Virus record (IMG/VR): IMGVR_UViG_3300005731_000013
Span: 103,977 to 167,976 of that record
DNA: 64,000 nt
Source: a virus
Direction: 5' to 3' (one strand)
Part shown: positions 2 to 57,302 of the stretch, one piece after another
How positions within the stretch are numbered: position 1 is the stretch's first letter
How the letters are laid out: the number at the start of each line of letters is the position of its first letter
Made by a program: the position numbers and the translations under genes
The notes under the pieces: generated by a model
The model's input: only the letters and a program-made list of their open reading frames with translations
The model's database searches: none
What the model was told of the DNA's origin: nothing

Positions 2-2641
2 GGATCTGGTATAGAACTATACCGTGCTGAAGTAGGCAAGACAAATAATACTAAAATTAAGAATGGTAAATTGTATAGTTATGAAAGTGGTGACATCATT
101 TCAACTTATGAAGTATTTGATCCACTCAAAGGAATCATTCCTGGGATTGCAGATTATGAAATTGATTTCCGTAGTGAATATGATAATGCAAAATATAATA
201 ACTCAACTGATGCAGATGTTGAATTGCGTCTAGATAATGTATGGGGTCCTGCACAAGTTGGAAAAGTTTGGTGGGATCTATCAAATGCAATATATCTTAA
301 TTATGATCAACATACGCCAGAATATCGCCAATTGCATTGGGGCAGTATGTTCCCTACAGCCACAATTGATGTTTATGAATGGACTAAGAGTCCTGTAACA
401 CCTGATGAATATCTGTCAGCAGTTGAAGCAGGAACAATAATTGATGGAATAGAATTGACAGGAACACCATATAGTATGGTCGACCAGTATGGCGAAGAAC
501 AGTTTAATTGGTCAGAAGATATTGAGTTGAATGTGAATACTAATCAATTAGAAACATATTATTATTTCTGGGTCAGCAATAAAACAACAACACCTACAAT
601 GGATAGATTGTATTCTGTCACCCAGATTGCACAAATAATTGAAGATCCAACAGCACATAATGTATCTTGGATGGCTGCAACCAGTGAAAATACATTGTTG
701 GTGACTGATTTGACTCAAAATTCTGGTTATGATGATTTGATTATGCAAGTAAATTTTGATACACACAAATCTGCATATCACCAAGAATTTTTGATGCTGG
801 CTGAAAATGACCCAGACTTATATATTCCAGAATGGCTACATATTAGTTTGCGCGACAGTTTGGCAGGGTTTACCCAAACTGTAGGAAATTACCAATTTAC
901 CAATTGGGAAAATGATGTCGAATATACATTCGAATCAATTGTAAAAAGTGATTTGGGCAAATTCTTCAGATGTCATGCAGAACATATTGCGCAAAATCCA
1001 GATGATGATGCAGATAATGATTATTGGACATTACTTGATTATATAACTGAAAATCCTGATGGTGACTGGGATGGAGGCGACGTAGTTTCGATTGATGAGT
1101 CTAAAAATATTCCTGATCGTTCATTGCATGAATATGCACGATATGGCATTGACACTAGACCGCATCAAACATGGTTTGTTGATATCTCAGAGGCGCGACA
1201 TGTTGCATTGACTAAATTAAATGATCAATTATCTGAAATCAACATTGTTGACAGTAATATTCCTTGGCAAGATGTATTTGAAAATACTATCGTCAAAGGC
1301 GAGATAGAATATAATCTGACAGATTATTGGCAATTCATCGATTGGTCATATGATGGAAATGTATATGAACGTGGAATCGGAGATTATTTTGTTGATACTG
1401 AATCTGAAATGAATTTACTATCACCAAATGATGGTGAAATTGTTCAAGTATGCTTTAGTAATGATATCGACTCAAGAAATCGCAGACAAGTATTCAAATT
1501 TGTAGATGATGAATGGTTGTTGATTTATAAAGAAAAAGCTACGTTAGAATTTAATGATTTACTTTGGAATAATGACATTGCATTGAGTGGATGGGATGTT
1601 GTTCCTTGGGATACAAATGTATGGGATAAAAATGCAAGTGCAGTGATGACTGAATTATTTGATGTATTTTACAATGACATTTGGGTAGGCGATTACCAAT
1701 CATTATATGCTGATTTATGGTTTGTAATGGTCAAACATGTATTCACAGAGCATAGAGAAGTTGATTGGATTTTCAAAACTAGTTATTTCGATGTCACAAC
1801 AGAGGATGATTTAGAAAAACAATATAACAAATATTTCAATCAAAATGTAGATGAATTATTTGATTATATTAATACAGTAAAACCATTCAGAAGTAAAGTA
1901 AAAGATGTAACACTGCGAAAAACGACTGATGATGAATTTGAAATGAGTGGATTAGACGGAGTTGAAATTCGAGTTCAAGTCAATCCTGTTGACTCAACTA
2001 TTGATGAAACTGACACTCGTAGTTTTAGATTGAATGTGTCAAAAACAAATGACAGTTATTCAAGTCAAATTATCAATGCGCATAAAATGTTGCTTGCAAC
2101 AAACTTAGGTCCTGATGATACTCGTATTCCATTTTTAAATTGGGGTGCTGCAACTACCATGCCAGATGGACCTGGTGCTTTTTGGATAAATGGTGAACGA
2201 ATCGAATATACTGCGGTTACCCATATTGGCGGCGGCAACCTAGGTGGTGGGTTCAGCAGCGGCTTCAACAGTGGCTTTAGTGGCATTACATTATTAACAG
2301 GAATAACTCGTGGCACACAAGGAACATTTGCTAGATCACACAAATATGCAGATGTTATCGAGGCGTCTACTGGTTTTGAATTAATTGAGAATACAACGTT
2401 AAGTGATTGGAATTCAGACATTCAACCTGCATGGAATGATCTCGGAGCAGGGATGTTGGATGGCGGAAATACAGATGCAAATGGTATCACTATTCAAGGA
2501 AACGGCTTCGGCACCATAGATTTATATGGCGATATTCTGTATGCACAATGGGTTGTATTAGGTGAGCCAGCAGATGCAATTGATGATTTCCAATCAGAAT
2601 TAGAAGAATTAATTGAAGAGTATTGGGTATTACATTCTTAG
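2..2641 (+). CDS. Large virion structural (tail/baseplate) protein, 3' part
   Basis: The frame is open from the left edge (first full codon at base 2) with no stop before 2641, so this is the C-terminal 879 residues of a longer gene; the TTG at 71 is not needed as a start. The protein is acidic, rich in Trp, Asp and Tyr, with no signal peptide or membrane segment. Near base 1756 it has a DWIFKTSYFDV stretch and near 2290-2340 a Gly-rich loop leading into LTGITRGTQGT. I know both patterns from large baseplate/tail proteins of marine T4-like phages. It lies directly upstream of the fibre genes on the late strand, which fits a baseplate or tail role. The exact T4 equivalent is not clear. Confidence 0.7.
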   Translation, partial: GSGIELYRAEVGKTNNTKIKNGKLYSYESGDIISTYEVFDPLKGIIPGIADYEIDFRSEYDNAKYNNSTDADVELRLDNVWGPAQVGKVWWDLSNAIYLNYDQHTPEYRQLHWGSMFPTATIDVYEWTKSPVTPDEYLSAVEAGTIIDGIELTGTPYSMVDQYGEEQFNWSEDIELNVNTNQLETYYYFWVSNKTTTPTMDRLYSVTQIAQIIEDPTAHNVSWMAATSENTLLVTDLTQNSGYDDLIMQVNFDTHKSAYHQEFLMLAENDPDLYIPEWLHISLRDSLAGFTQTVGNYQFTNWENDVEYTFESIVKSDLGKFFRCHAEHIAQNPDDDADNDYWTLLDYITENPDGDWDGGDVVSIDESKNIPDRSLHEYARYGIDTRPHQTWFVDISEARHVALTKLNDQLSEINIVDSNIPWQDVFENTIVKGEIEYNLTDYWQFIDWSYDGNVYERGIGDYFVDTESEMNLLSPNDGEIVQVCFSNDIDSRNRRQVFKFVDDEWLLIYKEKATLEFNDLLWNNDIALSGWDVVPWDTNVWDKNASAVMTELFDVFYNDIWVGDYQSLYADLWFVMVKHVFTEHREVDWIFKTSYFDVTTEDDLEKQYNKYFNQNVDELFDYINTVKPFRSKVKDVTLRKTTDDEFEMSGLDGVEIRVQVNPVDSTIDETDTRSFRLNVSKTNDSYSSQIINAHKMLLATNLGPDDTRIPFLNWGAATTMPDGPGAFWINGERIEYTAVTHIGGGNLGGGFSSGFNSGFSGITLLTGITRGTQGTFARSHKYADVIEASTGFELIENTTLSDWNSDIQPAWNDLGAGMLDGGNTDANGITIQGNGFGTIDLYGDILYAQWVVLGEPADAIDDFQSELEELIEEYWVLHS

Positions 2642-2652
2642 TGATATAAACT

Positions 2653-2660
2653 GATAAATA
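2653..2660 (+). promoter_or_regulatory. T4-type late promoter, GATAAATA
   Basis: The octamer GATAAATA differs from the T4 late consensus TATAAATA only in the first base. It lies between the stop of the structural gene and the tailspike ATG at 2682. A ribosome site AAGGAA sits just before that ATG. Confidence 0.5.
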
Positions 2661-2681
2661 TTATAAAGTTAAGGAATAGAT

Positions 2682-5600
2682 ATGACTGTAAACACAATAG
2701 TTGAATTGAATGCATTATTAGATAAAGTCGATCAAGACGCACAAGTTTTAGCCGCAATTACTAATGATGATGCAGACAGTACAGATAACGGCCCTGCCCC
2801 AGGTTATGTTACAACTCGCCTAGGAAGTAATGTTAAAAATATCCAAAAGGTAATCGCGGATGTTGAAGCTGATTTGGTCGAAGGACTTCAACCAAGCGTT
2901 AAGAAAGATGGTGCTACGATTGTTGAATCAGCAGCATCTTTCAATTATCAAGGCGGAAATATAACCGTAGAAAACGTCGATGGCGAAGCTACAATAACAG
3001 TGTTAACACGCTATCATGATTTGGAAACAATGCTTCTTAGTGAAGAAGGATCACGTGGTGTAGGAACAATTTGGGAAGCTGGCGCATTCATGTATGAAGA
3101 GGTGTCAGCCAATCCGCACCATACGACTGCCGCTGGCATAATGCTACAAGAGTTGGGACCAAACTTTACTTCTCGTGACAGAATTATTGATGCACTTGAT
3201 CGAGGAGTAACTTGGTCAAATGGCACACTTATTTCAGCTGATGGGTTCCTATATAAAGCTGTCGATTCTGCAGATGATATTCCTGACATGCCAGGATTGG
3301 TTCCTGTAGGAACTGAACTTTCTCCTAGACAATTCGGTGGATATTATAATGGTGTAGATAATGATAGCACCGCAGTAAGATTATGTTATTTTTATGCAAA
3401 TACTCATCAAATACCAGTAACCTTTGCAGGTATTGAAAAATGTGCATTGTGGGCTGATGGTCAAATAATTATCAATGTAGATACACATGGGCACGGTTGT
3501 CAATTGGTTGCAATTAATGGTATTAATACGCCACCTACATTTAGTTCAATTAATGTGATGTTCAAGATTGAAGATGAAAATACACCTGTTGTCTCAGGTG
3601 TAGTGGATACTCCATTAGTAGATGGCAACTTGGTTGCTGATTTAACAGCTGGATCAACTCGCCCGACAGCAGATTTCCTAAGACACACAGGGTATGCATA
3701 TATTCAAGGGTCTGGTGGAACTGGTCCTGAAATTGCCGACAGATATAAAGAAACAACATGGTCATATCGACAATCATTTGCAGTACAACCAAATGGCAGA
3801 ACAATGCAACCATTGAGTTTGGACTTGACTACAGAATCAGAATTCTTTTATGAATATCGATTAATGTCAGCTCGTGGCCGTGTACATGTACAAGGATTTA
3901 CAGCAGAAACTGAATCATTCAATAACCAAACATTGTTTGGTATTTACAGAAATGGTGTTACATTATCTGATATGCAATTTACACAAGTTGACGGTTCTCA
4001 AGATCCTGACTCTACAAATAAAATTATTCATGTAGAACGTGCTGCATATATTCATATTGATCGTATTACAGCACAAGCCCAACCAGATGGTGATAACCAA
4101 GGCGGAACATATCTTATCAATATGTCACAATTTGCTGAAGTATATATTACTGGTGTAAATGCTATTGAAGGATGGGGTTGCATGGGAACAAACCATGGTA
4201 ATGGTCTATATATTTCGGATTCTAATATCAATAGAATGGATGCACACAACGGCGGACATAATTATTATATTACTGACTCAACATTTTATAATCGTGGTGC
4301 TCATTTAGGCTGGGGCGGCGGTGTTTGGAGCGTTACAAACTGTCACCTAATCAATACATCTGCCGTGGTTGGCCGCCCTGATTATGGTAACTATTTCTTT
4401 GGAACAATCAGAGTGACAGATTGTACAATTTCTGATGTGTCATTTACTACAACAATTGTGGCATTGGATTCACCAGGCGCAGGAACAAATGTATTGTCAT
4501 ATCCTGTTGCACATTCGATCGTTATTGAAAACATAACACGAACAGATAATGATGGCAACGGCAATAATCGTGCAATCATACCACTATCATTGACTGTCAA
4601 TACAGATGCAGGCATCTTGGCGCCTATTGCACCAAGTAACATTAAAATTTCTAATATCACATGTTCAGGAAATTGGCGTCTAATATTGCCAATTGATTAT
4701 CAAAATATGTTGTTGCCACCTGATACTGACTTTTGTTCATTAACACTTTCAAATGTCAAACCTACTCGGGTTAATACAACTGGATTAGGTGTGAATATCC
4801 CAGCAAATACTATTGCTGGTGCTGGTGATTATAAAGTTGATTTTCATGCAGAAAATTGTACTAAATTGTCAATAAATGCAGCCGAACATGCAAAAATGGA
4901 TTTTTATCTTAGAAACTGTGATTTGAACAGAGTTTCTGTTGCTGATGGTGCCGTTGTTGAGATTGATGGCGGACTATTAACTGATATGGATCTTCAAGAT
5001 GCAGAAACACATGTTCCAGTAGGTGCGGCACGAATTGGATCAGGCTATACAACTATACGGAATGTTAAAGTGCAAGGTGAAGATGCTTCATCAGGTTGGG
5101 ATCTGTCAAATGTTGAAACTATGATTGGTGTTGATATTCCTGATAATTCAGAAAATGAAGGTAACATGTTGCCTACAGGATGTTTGAAAGCTCATGCATA
5201 TTATGGTTGGCGCCGAGATGATCCAAGTGGTGAAATTACTCCAGATTTTTGGGGCAAAAATACTAATCCAGGTGTAACTGACATGACAGAGGCAATTGAA
5301 GATGCGATTGTATATGCGTCAGATAATAATATTACATTGAAATTTAAATCAATTTATGGATTTACAAATATATCACCTACTGTTTGGGGCGATGGGGTTT
5401 ACTTAGATTTCGATAGTGGTGCTAAATTACAACAGCTATCAACTCGCGATCCTGATACTCCTGCATTGCAACTAAACGGATTACATGTTGCATCAGGTCG
5501 ATCATTGACTGCATCAGCATACAGTGGTGATATGACTGTATCTGTTGATAACGCAGCAAATTTTGAAGAAGGCCGCCTGGTATTTTTGCGTTCCAATCGT

Positions 5601-7382
5601 CTATTAGAAGGAGATCATAGATTTATTCCAGCTAATGCAATTGGTCAATTATGTAAAGTTGCTTCTGTATCTGGAAATGATGTAACCTTCGTTGATCCAT
5701 TGATTTGGGATATGATAATAGGAACTGTGACCAGTGGAACAGCACAAGCGGCAACAAGTGATAATATTACATTAGATGCAGCAACAACAGCTACCACTAA
5801 TGACATTAAAAACTTATTTGTAACCATTTTGAGTGGAACTGGGGCAGGACAATCTAGATATATTGTTGATTATGACGAGACAACTAAAATTGCTGATATT
5901 GGCACAAGTTATGGAGATTTCCCACAAGATCCTTGGGATGTTATACCAGATGCCACTTCAGTTTATGAAATTGTTGAAGATGTAACTGTTGATTGTTATG
6001 CACCATATAAATTTAAAGGTAACATTAAATTAGAAGGATATCCTGAAAATAACGTCAATGTTGCGGGTGTTAACATTAGTTATGCAGATACTCCAATTCT
6101 AGATAATGCACATATTGATGGTTGCAGTAATTATTCATTATATACTAGATTCTCATATTTGCCAGTTGTTCGAAATTGTCAATTTAAACGTGCAAACTAT
6201 GCATATAATAATGGATCAGGCCTAGGATATGGTCATAGTGATTATGGGTCATATAAAGCTTTGGTTGAAAATTGTATTGCTATTGGATGTAGAACAGGTT
6301 TTGACGCAACAAGTGCATCATATGGTATGACACGCAGAAATAATACAACAATTGGCGGTGGCCCAACATATGATGGCGGGTTCTTTTATCCTGATGTATC
6401 ATCTGGTTATGAACCGAACAGTGGGTTCTCATCACATTGTGGTGCAATTGATTTGTATGATACAGGTAATGATTCACATAATGTGTTCCAATCTAAAATC
6501 AGAGGTATCCATACAATTGATAATTGTAGAATTTCAGGATTTTCATATAGAGGATATTTGGTATTCTTTTCACCAAAAGCAATTATTATGAATTCAACAT
6601 ATACTGACAGTTATACTTATACCCCTATTGTCACAGATTCAGTATTTGATCCTGGTGATGATGGTATTATGTTTACAGAATCATATCCATCTACCCCACA
6701 GGAATTTATACATGTTCAACAATCAGATATGCCTGACAACGCATCATTGGTGGTAAGAAACAATGTAGTAAGTGCAGTCCAAGCTGACTTTATTCGTCTT
6801 GGCGATCTTTCAACCACTTCAAATTTATCTTTGGAAGTTACAAATAATCATGTAACTATTGTTAAAGGATCTGGATCAGGCGATCAAAGTTTGATAGATG
6901 CTAACGACGCGTTTTCATTAGGTGCATTGATAGCACACAATAATGTTATCAATTGGGGTGGTGATGCAGCAGGTTCTGTTGCATATGATAATTTGTCGCC
7001 ATTGCCATTTATTAACACTTATTTAGAGCCATCAGATATGGTAATGGTGTTAGGTGAAGGTATGTATGCTGTTAGACTTGCAACCTCAAAACGAGCAAAT
7101 ATTTCGTATGGTAACAATAGACAAGGCTTCTTTTGTACAGCGTATCAAGCTGACGATCTCGCCAGTCATCATTGGTATGGTTTGGTTGATTCTACCGCAG
7201 GTGTAGTTAATGAAATATCAACAACAGGCTCAGTGTTTCATCCTGCTGATACTGCATTGTCAGCTGGATCAACAACATCAGGCATGTTAAATTTATCTAT
7301 TAGATCAAATGGCACATTGCAAGTTTATAATAAAACAGGTGCAACACAAACATTTATTGTCGAATTAGGTAATAGAATATAA
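2682..7382 (+). CDS. Giant tailspike/tail fibre with two beta-helix regions
   Basis: A 1566-residue protein with start ATG after AAGGAA. Residues 1-110 look like a helical virion-attachment segment. A head module (LYK...GLVPVGT...) precedes a region from about 220 to 800 that is rich in Asn, Gly and Thr with alternating beta-strand character, as in right-handed beta-helix (pectate-lyase-like) tailspikes. A second entry module (TPDFWGKNTNPGVTDM) near residue 860 opens another such region to about 1450, and the last 100 residues look like a separate receptor-binding or trimer cap. Related entry modules occur in the next gene. The role is probably host-surface binding or glycan cleavage; the substrate and any catalytic residues cannot be read from sequence. 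Confidence 0.75.
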   Translation: MTVNTIVELNALLDKVDQDAQVLAAITNDDADSTDNGPAPGYVTTRLGSNVKNIQKVIADVEADLVEGLQPSVKKDGATIVESAASFNYQGGNITVENVDGEATITVLTRYHDLETMLLSEEGSRGVGTIWEAGAFMYEEVSANPHHTTAAGIMLQELGPNFTSRDRIIDALDRGVTWSNGTLISADGFLYKAVDSADDIPDMPGLVPVGTELSPRQFGGYYNGVDNDSTAVRLCYFYANTHQIPVTFAGIEKCALWADGQIIINVDTHGHGCQLVAINGINTPPTFSSINVMFKIEDENTPVVSGVVDTPLVDGNLVADLTAGSTRPTADFLRHTGYAYIQGSGGTGPEIADRYKETTWSYRQSFAVQPNGRTMQPLSLDLTTESEFFYEYRLMSARGRVHVQGFTAETESFNNQTLFGIYRNGVTLSDMQFTQVDGSQDPDSTNKIIHVERAAYIHIDRITAQAQPDGDNQGGTYLINMSQFAEVYITGVNAIEGWGCMGTNHGNGLYISDSNINRMDAHNGGHNYYITDSTFYNRGAHLGWGGGVWSVTNCHLINTSAVVGRPDYGNYFFGTIRVTDCTISDVSFTTTIVALDSPGAGTNVLSYPVAHSIVIENITRTDNDGNGNNRAIIPLSLTVNTDAGILAPIAPSNIKISNITCSGNWRLILPIDYQNMLLPPDTDFCSLTLSNVKPTRVNTTGLGVNIPANTIAGAGDYKVDFHAENCTKLSINAAEHAKMDFYLRNCDLNRVSVADGAVVEIDGGLLTDMDLQDAETHVPVGAARIGSGYTTIRNVKVQGEDASSGWDLSNVETMIGVDIPDNSENEGNMLPTGCLKAHAYYGWRRDDPSGEITPDFWGKNTNPGVTDMTEAIEDAIVYASDNNITLKFKSIYGFTNISPTVWGDGVYLDFDSGAKLQQLSTRDPDTPALQLNGLHVASGRSLTASAYSGDMTVSVDNAANFEEGRLVFLRSNRLLEGDHRFIPANAIGQLCKVASVSGNDVTFVDPLIWDMIIGTVTSGTAQAATSDNITLDAATTATTNDIKNLFVTILSGTGAGQSRYIVDYDETTKIADIGTSYGDFPQDPWDVIPDATSVYEIVEDVTVDCYAPYKFKGNIKLEGYPENNVNVAGVNISYADTPILDNAHIDGCSNYSLYTRFSYLPVVRNCQFKRANYAYNNGSGLGYGHSDYGSYKALVENCIAIGCRTGFDATSASYGMTRRNNTTIGGGPTYDGGFFYPDVSSGYEPNSGFSSHCGAIDLYDTGNDSHNVFQSKIRGIHTIDNCRISGFSYRGYLVFFSPKAIIMNSTYTDSYTYTPIVTDSVFDPGDDGIMFTESYPSTPQEFIHVQQSDMPDNASLVVRNNVVSAVQADFIRLGDLSTTSNLSLEVTNNHVTIVKGSGSGDQSLIDANDAFSLGALIAHNNVINWGGDAAGSVAYDNLSPLPFINTYLEPSDMVMVLGEGMYAVRLATSKRANISYGNNRQGFFCTAYQADDLASHHWYGLVDSTAGVVNEISTTGSVFHPADTALSAGSTTSGMLNLSIRSNGTLQVYNKTGATQTFIVELGNRI

Positions 7383-31857: not shown

Positions 31858-32556
31858 TTACGCTTTATTGTTTGCAGGCGTGTTCTGTGTAGTTTTGCGC
31901 GGCTGACGCTTTGCCTTAGGCTTTGGTTTTGGCGCTAATGATGGGTCTAGTACGATGGCTTGCTCTCTGAGCTCCTTCGCTTGTGCTTCAAATGATTCTG
32001 CTTGTGCGATATAATTGGTTGCAATTGCTGCATCGTCTAGCACGCCTTCCCCGCCTGTCTCTGGTGTTGCAGTATCAGGGACAACTACAGAATCATCAAC
32101 ATCATTTACAACTTGATTAATTTGCCTAGGCGGCAGATCAGTGTCATCTTGTAATACAGTTTCGATATCTTGTTGTGATGCTCCTGATTGTTGCATCTTC
32201 ACAATTTTATTTATCTTGTCTAAGCCAATAACTGTATTTGAGTCAGGAGTCAACATAACATTGTTGGTAGGGAATTTTCGCAAGCGTTGACTTGATACTA
32301 GCCAATTCAATGCAATAATGCCGCTGCCAAGACGTGTGCGGGCTAGAACATTATATAGTTCACTGGCTGATTGTGCTGGCTCACTTTCAATAATTTTCAT
32401 CAAATCTTGGTGTTCAGCATCTGGCAATGTATCAGTTTCAAAAACCAAACAATGTTTGTCATCAATGACATTACCTTTATCGTCATAAATTTCTCTAAAT
32501 ACTACAACACAACGACGACCTGTGTTTGCAATTTGTCCAATATGTTTGTGTGCCAT
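31858..32556 (-). CDS. Conserved phage protein with basic C-terminal tail
   Basis: 232 residues. The N-terminal 130 residues are compact (GRRCVVVFREIYDDKGNV ... CLVFETDTLP); then comes an acidic linker, a helical segment and a C-terminal tail rich in Lys, Pro and Arg (PKPKPKAKRQPRK) that could bind nucleic acid. It overlaps the next upstream gene by one base (TAATG). I recognise the N-terminal type as a conserved gene of marine T4-like phages without assigned function. A late-type promoter lies one gene upstream, so it may be made late. Confidence 0.6.
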   Translation of the reverse strand: MAHKHIGQIANTGRRCVVVFREIYDDKGNVIDDKHCLVFETDTLPDAEHQDLMKIIESEPAQSASELYNVLARTRLGSGIIALNWLVSSQRLRKFPTNNVMLTPDSNTVIGLDKINKIVKMQQSGASQQDIETVLQDDTDLPPRQINQVVNDVDDSVVVPDTATPETGGEGVLDDAAIATNYIAQAESFEAQAKELREQAIVLDPSLAPKPKPKAKRQPRKTTQNTPANNKA

Positions 32557-32795
32557 TATGCACCTCCTTCTTGATTTACTCGAGCAGCCTGTTGTATTTG
32601 TGCTTGATGTTGCATGAATGTATTTAATTTTTCATACGTGATTCCGACAGTAGCCAATTCCTGTGGCTCATATGCCCCGCGCTTGATGGCTAAATGCAAT
32701 AGCTGAACAGTTATTGCAATATCTTGCATACCCAATTCGGGGACATTTTGTTCGAATGTATTGTCAGATTCAACCGATTGTGGTGTGTTTGACAT
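32556..32795 (-). CDS. Small conserved phage protein
   Basis: 79 residues with ATG behind AGGAGATAATTA. The central ITVQLLHLAIKRGAYEPQELATVG segment is a pattern I know from small proteins in T4-like marine phages; function unknown. It is helical, with no cysteines. It shares one base with the next gene and lies below a GATAAATA late-type promoter. Confidence 0.6.
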   Translation of the reverse strand: MSNTPQSVESDNTFEQNVPELGMQDIAITVQLLHLAIKRGAYEPQELATVGITYEKLNTFMQHQAQIQQAARVNQEGGA

Positions 32796-53856: not shown

Positions 53857-56589
53857 TTAGAAACTGAACAAATCGTTAAAGGTTGTCTTAGTCTCTGCAA
53901 GTGACAGATCCCAATCCAAAGTCCCTAACAAGTTGTTGATCTTTTTAGTTACAATTGTTTCTTCCATCTCATCGTTGTCAAACGGAAGCTCTTTATACCA
54001 ATCAGGAATTCGCTTTTCATCAGTTGGGATACCAATGCTTGTCATTCCCAATGGATTTTGTTTGAGTTTACATACAATAGTTTTCATGCCGTCAGCAATT
54101 TCTAAACTATATTGATCATTATTCATTTCACGCAAACGGTTATAATTGATTGCTGCCATGACATGGCCCACGCCACATTTACCAGTGTTTTTCCATTTTG
54201 CAGTATACATAGTCAAATTGTTGACACGTTTAGGTGTCCCCTTTTCCCAAGGCTGCATTTTTCTAAACTCAGTTCTGAAATCACGAATGCGATTAATGAT
54301 ATGGTCTTCACTGGCGCCTTCTAAAGTCTCCTTCAAAATATCCTTAAGAAAATCTTGCATGTATTCAGGTGTATCACTACGCTTGATTTCCAAGCCCATG
54401 ACTTTGAGTTTGCCACGTTTGCCATCAGTATCTACTCGTGTTCCTTCATCATCATACACCAGAATCCCATAGCGTTTTTTACTAATGAATATACCAGTTT
54501 CACCTACAGTTTCACGAGCAGCGGCAATAATGCGACCATATTTTTCTGGACAGTTATGCGCTTTAGACATATAGCCTGGGAAAGTATCATTTACTTGCTC
54601 ACCAACTGCATCATACAGTTCGACAACTCTATCTTTATCCCATGCGAACTCACCACTTTCAATTTGATCCTTAAACACTGGATATGCACTAAAATATACA
54701 GAATCCGTATCACCGTAAATGATACTTTTTCCTACGTGATTGTATTCACCTGTAAATGCTTCATTACTTGCCGCAGACATATGTCTTGCAATGGTACGAC
54801 CAGTCAAAGTAGTTGATTGCCCGAGACGTTGATCAAAAAATCTACTACCTGGATTCAACAACGCACCATATAGTGAATTCAAATTAATCTTTTTCACAAG
54901 TTGGCGCTTATCCCAAAAAGCAAATTCTTTTTCTTTGCCTTTTTTGCCCCTAAACTCTTTTGCTTTCGCTTGAAGCTCTTTACGTTCAGCATACCAACGT
55001 CCCAACAAACTAGGAACCACACCTTGCTTTTCAAATGTAAAGATAGTGCCATTGCTTGTAATACACCAAGGTTTACCATTATGGAAGATCAAGTCATATA
55101 CTTCAGCACCTGAGCATTCATAACTTGTGCCATCTTCAAAGTCGATGTAAAGCTTTTCAACTTTGTCTCGTGCCATAACAAGTTCGTATTCTTTACATGC
55201 GAACTTACCATCCCAATACTTAGGGAACGGACTGTCTTGTTGTGACTTACCAAAGCGAAATACTTCAGCGAAGTCATTAGGGTTGACTACTTTCTTATCA
55301 AAGTGTTTATAAGTTTTGATGAGATCAGCAAGCCCTTGGTTAGTAAACGTATGCCGAACCTGCCCGACAATACACTCTGGGCTCATGTTGCAAGCCCGTA
55401 GAATTGACGGATACAGAGAGTTAAGGTCCATACTACCAATCCACTTGTGCAACCCTTTAACAGGGTTTGCAACATAGGCACCCGCGGCAGGAATATGTTC
55501 TTGCCCTCTAATCTTGTCAGGAACAATCAACCCACGTTTATGTGCTTCATTGACAATAGCTTGGTCAGTTTGCGCAACAGCGCCCATAGTGGTTTGAAGT
55601 AGAACCGTGTTAGCATGAGCAAGCAGGTTTGCCTGGTCAATATATTGCAACTTATCATCTAGTTTACGTAGAAGGTCAGTATCCTGTATGTTATACTCAA
55701 TAAACTTCTTGAAGTCATTGTTGTATAACTGATCCAAAGTCCCTTCATATTCAACTTTCTTTTCACCTAATTCATGTTCAGTAATGGCATCAAGGCTGTA
55801 ACTGTGCATGACATTGTAGGTGTATTTCATATAGAGTTGCATATAGTCAAGGTGGACACGCCCGACTAAATCGTATGTTTCAGCTTCTTTACCATAAGAT
55901 TCATAAGTCCTACGTTTAGGGCTTTGACCCCACAAGCATAGCTTACGAGTGTAATCTTTACCAAGCACTCGTGCAATACGATTGACAATGTATGGAATAT
56001 CGAAGCCTTCGCTGTTCCAACCTGACAAGATATCGGCGTCGTCCACCAGCTCAATAAAGGTTTGCAGCAACTCTTCTTCGCTATCCATTAGGATAACGTC
56101 GTTAAATGATCCTACAATCCCTTCTGCTTCTTCTTGAGACATTTTTTTAGGCTTAATAACAAGACAAATAGTCTTATCAATCCAATTTAAATGTACTCCA
56201 ACAGCCGTAATAGGATTGAATGGGTCACTTGGAGGTGCAAAACCAAGTTCTTTATTGAAATCAACCTCAATATCAAAGAATCCGATATGCAGATTTGGTG
56301 GTTCGGCATCCATATATTCATCAGCCAAACATCTAAAAGTAACATTCATATCACTTTCAAATAATTTTTTACCAGCAAACATTTTCTTTTCTTTATTAAA
56401 TGCTTTGCTGCTTGCAGTTTGAAATCGTTCTAGTTTGTCACCATAAATGCTAGTAAATTTTCCATTTTGGCTCGGATAATAAAATACATAACGTGCAGGA
56501 TATTGAACAAATTCCCGCTCACCATCACTATTTCGTTCTACAACATTTACAATATCACGATTTCTATCATGAAATGCATCAATATAAAT
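53857..56589 (-). CDS. 43: DNA polymerase (T4 gp43-like), probable ATT start
   Basis: 910 residues when begun at the ATT at 56589, against 898 in T4 gp43. FFDIEVD (D106, E108) is exonuclease motif I; DLNSLYPSI (near 386), KINLNSLYGALLN (near 570) and YGDTDSVYF (near 625) are polymerase motifs A, B and C; the end LFSF-type tail binds the clamp. The frame upstream of the first ATG (56382) encodes a further 69 residues typical of the gp43 N-terminus (REFVQYPARYVFYYP, SIYGDKLERF), with no ATG, GTG or TTG. AAGGAG stands 7 bases before ATT 56589, which is one base after the previous stop. A truncated start at 56382 would lose the N-terminal domain. Confidence 0.93.
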   Translation of the reverse strand: MYIDAFHDRNRDIVNVVERNSDGEREFVQYPARYVFYYPSQNGKFTSIYGDKLERFQTASSKAFNKEKKMFAGKKLFESDMNVTFRCLADEYMDAEPPNLHIGFFDIEVDFNKELGFAPPSDPFNPITAVGVHLNWIDKTICLVIKPKKMSQEEAEGIVGSFNDVILMDSEEELLQTFIELVDDADILSGWNSEGFDIPYIVNRIARVLGKDYTRKLCLWGQSPKRRTYESYGKEAETYDLVGRVHLDYMQLYMKYTYNVMHSYSLDAITEHELGEKKVEYEGTLDQLYNNDFKKFIEYNIQDTDLLRKLDDKLQYIDQANLLAHANTVLLQTTMGAVAQTDQAIVNEAHKRGLIVPDKIRGQEHIPAAGAYVANPVKGLHKWIGSMDLNSLYPSILRACNMSPECIVGQVRHTFTNQGLADLIKTYKHFDKKVVNPNDFAEVFRFGKSQQDSPFPKYWDGKFACKEYELVMARDKVEKLYIDFEDGTSYECSGAEVYDLIFHNGKPWCITSNGTIFTFEKQGVVPSLLGRWYAERKELQAKAKEFRGKKGKEKEFAFWDKRQLVKKINLNSLYGALLNPGSRFFDQRLGQSTTLTGRTIARHMSAASNEAFTGEYNHVGKSIIYGDTDSVYFSAYPVFKDQIESGEFAWDKDRVVELYDAVGEQVNDTFPGYMSKAHNCPEKYGRIIAAARETVGETGIFISKKRYGILVYDDEGTRVDTDGKRGKLKVMGLEIKRSDTPEYMQDFLKDILKETLEGASEDHIINRIRDFRTEFRKMQPWEKGTPKRVNNLTMYTAKWKNTGKCGVGHVMAAINYNRLREMNNDQYSLEIADGMKTIVCKLKQNPLGMTSIGIPTDEKRIPDWYKELPFDNDEMEETIVTKKINNLLGTLDWDLSLAETKTTFNDLFSF

Positions 56590-56590
56590 A

Positions 56591-56848
56591 TTATCTCTCC
56601 TTTAAATCAGATGTCAGAATATACATCACCGTTTCTTCAATCGCATCCAGACAAATAACTTCTGATGGATATTTATTACTAGATGATTGATATCCAGTAT
56701 TGTTTAGTCTTGATACTTTAATCAGTTTCGGCATTATTTTTGTTAATCTGCAAATCTGCATTTTGGTAGCAGAATTTGGAACTGCAACAATACTACCAAC
56801 TTGCATTGCTTGTCCAAGTTTGTCATATACAGTTGTTTTAGTCATCAT
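56591..56848 (-). CDS. Hypothetical small protein upstream of the polymerase
   Basis: 85 residues. AMQVGSIVAVPNSATKMQICRLTKIMPKLIKVSRL reads like a small beta-barrel (SH3/OB-like). Its TAA ends one base before the proposed ATT start of the polymerase and its last codons contain the polymerase ribosome site, so it is likely to control polymerase translation by coupling. It overlaps the upstream gene by 11 bases. Confidence 0.6.
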   Translation of the reverse strand: MMTKTTVYDKLGQAMQVGSIVAVPNSATKMQICRLTKIMPKLIKVSRLNNTGYQSSSNKYPSEVICLDAIEETVMYILTSDLKER

Positions 56849-57041
56849 TTGTTTCTTTCAATAAATCATAAAATTTAACTTCCTTAGGATCAATCGTGAC
56901 CCAAACAGGATAGGTATATTTGCCTTGCACTTGTCCAAATGTAGTATGACACATAGAACAATGCCATACTGCTCCGATCTTATGATCTTCTTTAGAACAT
57001 GAAGCAATATGTCCACAAGAACATGCCCATGAATAATTCAT
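56838..57041 (-). CDS. Small zinc-binding-type protein
   Basis: 67 residues. C7, C9, C15 and C28-C31 (CSMC) with H11 and H27 suggest one zinc ribbon or knuckle (WACSCGH ... WHCSMCHTTFG). The C-terminal half is a short strand-helix unit. It lies 3 bases after dsbA. Possibly a DNA- or protein-binding replication accessory; unknown. Confidence 0.6.
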   Translation of the reverse strand: MNYSWACSCGHIASCSKEDHKIGAVWHCSMCHTTFGQVQGKYTYPVWVTIDPKEVKFYDLLKETNDD

Positions 57042-57044
57042 GAC

Positions 57045-57302
57045 TTAAAAATCTCGCCCAATCGCAACAAGAATATCTTCCATGTCACTCAATGCTTCGC
57101 GTTTATCTTCTAAATCAGCTTTATATGCTGTTCTAATTGCTCTGTTAATCACTGCAGGCTTTAATTCAAGTTCTTCAGCAATTGCTTTGACAGTATCGCC
57201 TAGGGCTTCTTTAAGCGTATCTACTTCGGTTTGAACTTGAACACCTTCTGTAACAATTTCTTTAAGCTTTTTAATTTCAGATTCTGAAAAATTTCGTGTC
57301 AT
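57045..57302 (-). CDS. dsbA: DsbA-like double-stranded DNA-binding protein
   Basis: 85 residues, near T4 DsbA (89). LKEALGDTVKAIAEELELKPAVINRAIRTAYKADLEDKREALSDMEDIL is the conserved helical core of the T4 DsbA family, which binds DNA near late promoters and supports late transcription. The start is ATG with GGAG upstream. Its presence with the gp45-type clamp and NATAAATA octamers indicates a T4-like late transcription system. Confidence 0.78.
   Translation of the reverse strand: MTRNFSESEIKKLKEIVTEGVQVQTEVDTLKEALGDTVKAIAEELELKPAVINRAIRTAYKADLEDKREALSDMEDILVAIGRDF

Follow-up and report, generated by a model that had tools for sequence, protein, structure and literature searches.

The window analysed here, a stretch of 64,000 nucleotides, covers bases 103977–167976 of the 167,976-base virus record IMGVR_UViG_3300005731_000013, and on its minus strand it carries a gene for a gp43-type family B DNA polymerase which appears to start at an ATT codon. 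The open frame runs from 56601 to a stop at 53857 (914 codons), with an in-frame TAA directly 5' of 56601. The product matches phrog_262 over residues 12–908 (E 6e-201) as well as the Pfam families DNA_pol_B and DNA_pol_B_exo1; the profiles span the exonuclease and polymerase domains and solved gp43-type chains align with it, which places it among the T4 gp43-type family B polymerases. The frame opens AGG AGA GAT AAT ATT TAT ATT GAT, and upstream of the first ATT (56587–56589, minus strand) there is no in-frame ATG, GTG, TTG or CTG. Read from this codon the gene would occupy 53857–56589, 910 codons and a stop. A Shine-Dalgarno sequence, AAGGAG (56597–56602, minus strand), precedes the ATT with a 7-nucleotide spacer, and the first in-frame ATG (56380–56382, minus strand), which we do not take as the start, lies 69 codons below it. 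Directly upstream is an 85-residue gene (56591–56848, minus strand), which matched neither Pfam nor PHROG at E 0.001 and whose TAA (56593–56591) ends one base before the ATT. The preliminary description of this DNA had given the same spacing of AAGGAG, ATT and upstream stop, and had stated that the 69 codons above the ATG hold no ATG, GTG, TTG or CTG; both are confirmed on the minus strand.

That the region above the ATG is coding, as also proposed earlier, was borne out in three ways. Related polymerases align with the window up to the residue directly after the ATT. The ratio of nonsynonymous to synonymous differences per site (pN/pS) between the window and 13 members of its clade, defined below, is 0.20–0.31 for codons 2–72, with pS at 0.76–1.04, and 0.10–0.27 for codons 74–329, so the N-terminal part is overall under weaker constraint than the rest and yet under purifying selection. 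Furthermore, a solved gp43-type polymerase, which we take to be that of RB69, aligns from residue 28 of the frame, the 24th from the ATT and well above 56382. The feature looks specific to this gene. Of the conserved, non-overlapping open reading frames of the record, 19 of 69 have a match that begins at least 3 codons before the first ATG, GTG or TTG; the lead is 73 codons in the polymerase and 3–21 in the other 18, and far-leading homology is confined to the polymerase among the 69. A candidate for a second such gene (31861–32631, minus strand, lead 21 codons) was set aside as having an ordinary AAGGAGG-ATG. The starts of the other 68 conserved genes, picked by a rough rule favouring a good Shine-Dalgarno sequence, are 56 ATG, 10 TTG and 2 GTG.

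The start codon was then compared among relatives. Seven scans of viral contigs, one scan of genome contigs and nine phage records gave 350 loci, with the window 351 sequences; four of the viral-contig scans gave the best 80 loci each, so the outgroup is not exhaustive. Three sequences were left unscored, two without the N-terminus (L191, L283) and one that differs in the search motif (L262, by eye ATG-S-Y), and among the remaining 348 there are 225 distinct start regions. We define the clade as 15 of these: the window, 13 sequences at 69–79% identity (cut at 66%), and L131 (61%), which was added from the tree. None of the 15 has ATG at the aligned start. The codon is ATT in six (window, L014, L021, L200, L022, L131), ATA in five (L002, L212, L198, L112, L271), ATC in L004, CTG in L007/L009, GTG in L003 and TTG in L196. 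With initiation codons sorted into their customary classes, 13 of the 15 lie outside class I, and two have GTG or TTG. Outside the clade the 210 distinct sequences have 177 ATG, 27 TTG, 5 GTG and a single ATC. That ATC belongs to L213 (59% identity), where ATC-AGT-TAC stands behind AAGGAG with a duplex energy of -8.5, perhaps an independent non-AUG start. The gp43 genes of RaK2, GAP32, PA5oct, Phosso, Atu_ph07, SCTP-2, XacN1, CM1 and Vibrio phage 2.275.O, which rank among the better tblastn matches in annotated phages, are the same gene as that of the window but have ATG at the aligned start in all nine cases; for 2.275.O the annotation places the start at a GTG upstream of this ATG. On the question raised earlier, whether the ATT is conserved in related phages, the avoidance of ATG is shared (15/15) and ATT itself is not (6/15). 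From these comparisons the start site and its conservation across relatives are well supported, and the ATT start of the window's polymerase strongly so.

A tree was built from the N-terminal 420 residues of 80 of the 225 polymerases, with the start codon excluded; it is a quick tree without bootstrap, it omits L212, and it gives L131 a long terminal branch. The 14 rows without ATG form one branch, with a value of 99 in the Shimodaira-Hasegawa-like approximate likelihood ratio test (SH-aLRT). The sister group, read off the tree at a branch support of 91, has 23 rows, 22 with ATG and one with TTG. Within the clade there have been at least seven changes among six codons and none to ATG, even though each of the six is one base away from ATG and synonymous sites are near saturation. 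Over all rows the tree needs four changes between class I and the rest, and six between ATG and the rest. When the non-class-I rows are set against the TTG and GTG rows only, a weak comparison, four changes are needed, and 27 of 500 shuffles were as low.

The weakest codons go together with strong Shine-Dalgarno sequences. Strength was taken as the energy of the duplex with the 16S tail, which is -8.7 for the window's polymerase; among the other 68 conserved genes of the record, 3 reach this value. Where the clade has ATT, ATA, ATC or CTG (13 members) the mean is -7.6 (range -6.4 to -8.9), and in the 23 sisters it is -4.2 (-2.1 to -6.2), so the two groups do not overlap. The GTG member of the clade has -4.3 and the TTG member -6.2, and outside the clade the TTG genes average -6.6 and the GTG genes -4.7.

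A hairpin of the kind that serves T4 as an operator was sought by folding positions -60 to -14, and none is common to the clade. The mean z in this interval is -0.44 in the clade (n=15), -0.20 in the sisters (n=23) and -0.48 in the others (n=186), and the hairpins of L021 (z -3.3) and L198 (z -2.1) are not shared. A downstream hairpin over codons 8–14, which recurs in the folds, was rejected: its strength does not exceed that of synonymously recoded versions of the peptide (mean z -0.03 in the clade, 15/15 sequences, and -0.32 in 209 others) and is a by-product of the D-R-x-R-D motif.

A strong ribosome-binding site in front of a codon other than AUG suggests a deliberate throttle on polymerase synthesis. 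In the reading that we prefer, to which we give a probability of roughly 0.6, the gene has a near-cognate AUU start driven by its Shine-Dalgarno sequence, and the clade maintains it as an IF3-dependent throttle that limits polymerase synthesis. Translation would begin at the AUU with formyl-methionine, placed there by the strong Shine-Dalgarno sequence, and the host's ordinary initiator tRNA would recognize the codon by near-cognate pairing. The ribosome-binding site would recruit 30S subunits, and IF3-dependent proofreading would reject most of the initiation complexes at the weak codon. The output of polymerase would thereby be limited at a rate set by host IF3, and the weak codon would be kept in the clade because such a throttle presumably benefits the phage. 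The sensitivity to IF3 is suggested because the near-cognate codon, the strong Shine-Dalgarno sequence and the conservation match the anatomy of infC and sigR, the bacterial genes discussed at the end. As in those genes, the start, at the position set by homology, is not ATG, GTG or TTG, this non-canonical state is conserved among relatives, and all 13 non-class-I members have a Shine-Dalgarno energy of -6.4 or stronger.

Several results weigh against this reading. In many homologues ATG stands behind a strong Shine-Dalgarno sequence (the 177 ATG genes outside the clade have a mean of -5.4, standard deviation 2.9), and low dosage is therefore not a need of the whole family. The start region (-25 to +25) is also less structured in the clade, at -3.6, than in the sisters (-6.0) and the others (-4.9). 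Since a strong Shine-Dalgarno sequence and an open structure both favour initiation, the net rate may be moderate, or tuned, instead of minimal. Two clade members use GTG or TTG, which are ordinary if weaker starts. Finally, the absence of a third-base G from the 12 ATN codons has a probability of 0.13 under free drift, and the rows share kinship, so p values overstate.

It is possible, although we consider it unlikely, that the near-cognate start is under no specific selection: an ancestral strong Shine-Dalgarno sequence would have made the codon nearly neutral and left it to drift among the near-cognates. The six codons in use and their repeated changes agree with this, as do the clade's strong Shine-Dalgarno sequences, its weakly folded start regions and the third-base figure, which alone is not significant. 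However, 177 of the 210 homologues outside the clade keep ATG, many despite a strong Shine-Dalgarno sequence. ATG is far more efficient as a start codon, and drift away from it in all lineages without a return would be unexpected. Selection is hence suggested by the combination with the dominance of ATG elsewhere, because 0.13 alone could be free drift.

It is also conceivable, as a tentative and rather doubtful extension of the throttle, that what is conserved in the polymerase group is IF3-gated synthesis and not a given start codon, with clade and sisters reaching it by different means. The sisters would restart at an AUG that is poor in Shine-Dalgarno sequence and overlaps the upstream stop, a route inhibited by excess IF3. 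When small genes moved in before the polymerase the overlap would have been lost, and the clade would have rebuilt the gate from a strong Shine-Dalgarno sequence and a non-AUG codon. In a coupled reporter described in PMC2268962, re-initiation fell almost threefold under excess IF3, which was ascribed to the missing Shine-Dalgarno sequence; the sister AUG is likened to that reporter because it is both overlapping and Shine-Dalgarno-poor. If such a gate exists, the phage would sense the balance of host IF3 and ribosomes to set the timing and amount of polymerase and the onset of replication.

The neighbourhood upstream bears on another explanation, termination-reinitiation, in which ribosomes that have just translated the upstream gene would initiate again at the AUU. 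The preliminary description had proposed that polymerase synthesis is tied to translation of that gene, and this fits the window but is not conserved. In 20 of 23 sisters the polymerase start shares bases with the upstream stop (as TAATG or in ATGA/TTGA forms), which it does in none of the 15 clade members; overlap or abutment is found in 64 of 187 others. In 10 of the 15 clade members a gene does end 1–15 nucleotides before the start, with the stop 1 nucleotide away in the window and L021 only, but in five the 60 nucleotides before the start contain no end of a gene of 45 codons or more. All members except those with GTG or TTG have a strong Shine-Dalgarno sequence of their own. Termination-reinitiation is therefore quite improbable as the explanation. 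In the clade overlap is lacking, the Shine-Dalgarno sequence is strong and ATG is absent, and coupling is not the conserved principle; the tightly coupled group is that of the ATG-using sisters.

The genes in this neighbourhood are themselves variable. Upstream of the 85-residue gene the window has a gene of 67 residues (56838–57041, minus strand), and then one of 85 residues with a match to phrog_12534 (57045–57302, minus strand). Of the 23 sisters, 6 have the phrog_12534 neighbour overlapping the polymerase; it is 97–1224 nucleotides off in all 15 clade members, a count that includes a match at 33% identity in L131. Small genes often sit between this neighbour and the polymerase in the clade, and the set of them differs between members. 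Relatives of the window's 85-residue gene at 56591–56848 precede the polymerase in L002, L014 and L007/L009 and not in the others, and neither this gene nor the one at 56838–57041 has a match in Pfam or PHROG. The overlapping sister starts, for example the TAATG starts of L027, L115 and L005, were observed to carry little or no Shine-Dalgarno sequence.

Some clade members could instead use other in-frame codons, and the non-AUG start would then be true of only part of the clade. Such a codon exists in 6 of the 15, and this also counts against the throttle. An in-frame ATG lies 4–5 codons downstream in L022, L198, L112, L212 and L131 (5/13 of the non-class-I members), and one lies upstream in L014 (16 codons) and L212 (23 codons); in the GTG member L003 there is a TTG 5 codons downstream. 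For the six members with such an ATG a different start is possible. However, the downstream ATGs are about 12–15 nucleotides farther from the Shine-Dalgarno sequence than the near-cognate codon, about 19–23 nucleotides in all and outside the usual spacing, and the Y-[VI]-D residues ahead of them are conserved in all. The upstream ATGs have no Shine-Dalgarno sequence to speak of, with energies of 0.4 and -0.5. We give the alternative little credence, and it does not apply to the window: there, as in L002, L004, L007, L021, L271 and L200, the 24 codons below the near-cognate codon are free of in-frame ATG, GTG and TTG, and so is the frame above it. Among the 13 non-class-I members these seven thus give the clearest case for a non-AUG start, which is less certain in the other six.

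The two findings that would have overturned the ATT start, a miscalled base or assembly error that replaced an ATG and a shortened protein from 56382, both appear very unlikely: although the record is a single metagenome-derived contig, 15 distinct start regions lack ATG, five of them recur as identical 300-base regions in contigs of at least two assemblies, not necessarily from separate samples (L021/L202, L200/L201, L198/L276, L007/L009, L271/L272/L273), and the sequence above 56382 is conserved and constrained.

We also looked for parts of the initiation machinery that the phage might encode itself. ARAGORN found no tRNA or tmRNA gene in the whole record, which is possibly a fragment (the window and six further stretches were searched), nor in 17 stretches of five related records. 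In the same possibly incomplete record there was no match to IF3_C, whose control matched in 10 of 14, or to S21, whose control matched in 6 of 14. A search of the record for RegA gave no match either, but its control also matched nowhere, so the search is uninformative.

Some further observations concern the polymerase genes of the relatives. In L212 (2001–5644) the gene is interrupted within its first exonuclease motif, following residue 110, and the two pieces (2001–2330 and 3263–5644) are in different frames; between them is a frame of 239 codons (2428–3147) which by eye resembles an HNH homing endonuclease, so that an intron is perhaps present. In L131 (1501–3986) the polymerase falls into two frames (residues 1–542, and from 557 on), of 546 and 404 amino acids in that record, either as a split gene or by a frameshift. 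Four relatives of the polymerase (L189–L192) come from contigs of metagenome-assembled genomes labelled as bacteria or archaea, and are probably binned phage contigs.

If the throttle is real, the avoidance of AUG on the replicative polymerase throughout the clade would be a translational control of dosage unlike the operator system of T4. With AUU, AUA, AUC and CUG the clade would also supply a naturally varied set of near-cognate starts in a single gene, and the reading predicts that the activity of host IF3 influences phage replication. A practical consequence is that gene finders restricted to ATG, GTG and TTG would set the start of this polymerase 69 codons too late. Among the matches listed from open-licence full text in PMC, none described a phage polymerase that begins at a codon other than AUG.

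Among known systems, pcnB of E. coli is said, in work attributed to Binns and Masters in 2002, to have an AUU start that limits its expression. It is like the polymerase in that codon and unlike it in being a bacterial gene, and the likeness is one of description alone.

Another parallel is sigR of Streptomyces, whose start codon according to PMC5472188 is a GTC that follows a very extensive ribosome-binding site, and where a canonical codon or a weakened IF3 leads to overproduction of SigR. Like the polymerase it has a non-canonical start that is conserved in relatives; unlike it, it encodes a bacterial sigma factor, and the repression by IF3 was established by experiment for sigR, whereas for the phage polymerase it is our reading of the start region.

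In T4, as PMC3014915 describes it, gp43 binds its own leader and represses its own translation initiation. The same enzyme would thus be held down at initiation in both phages, but the polymerase here has no shared leader hairpin and the codon itself is weak. Because no such hairpin is common to the clade, the route of control probably differs from that of T4.

The gene infC, which the preliminary description had invoked as a parallel, has ATT as its start codon in E. coli and ATC in Streptomyces (PMC5472188). According to PMC13009471, infC (AUA), cvfC1 (AUU) and ccpN (AUA) of S. aureus all begin at non-canonical codons, and an extended Shine-Dalgarno sequence is predicted for each of them. 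The polymerase resembles infC in having a conserved near-cognate start from the ATT/ATC/ATA set and, with respect to the S. aureus gene, in its strong Shine-Dalgarno sequence. The comparison does not extend to self-regulation: infC encodes IF3 and regulates itself, whereas the product here is a phage replicative polymerase, and no IF3 was found in the record. For codon and Shine-Dalgarno sequence the parallel holds, and a weak start of the infC kind, limiting the expression of the polymerase, is the best-supported reading.

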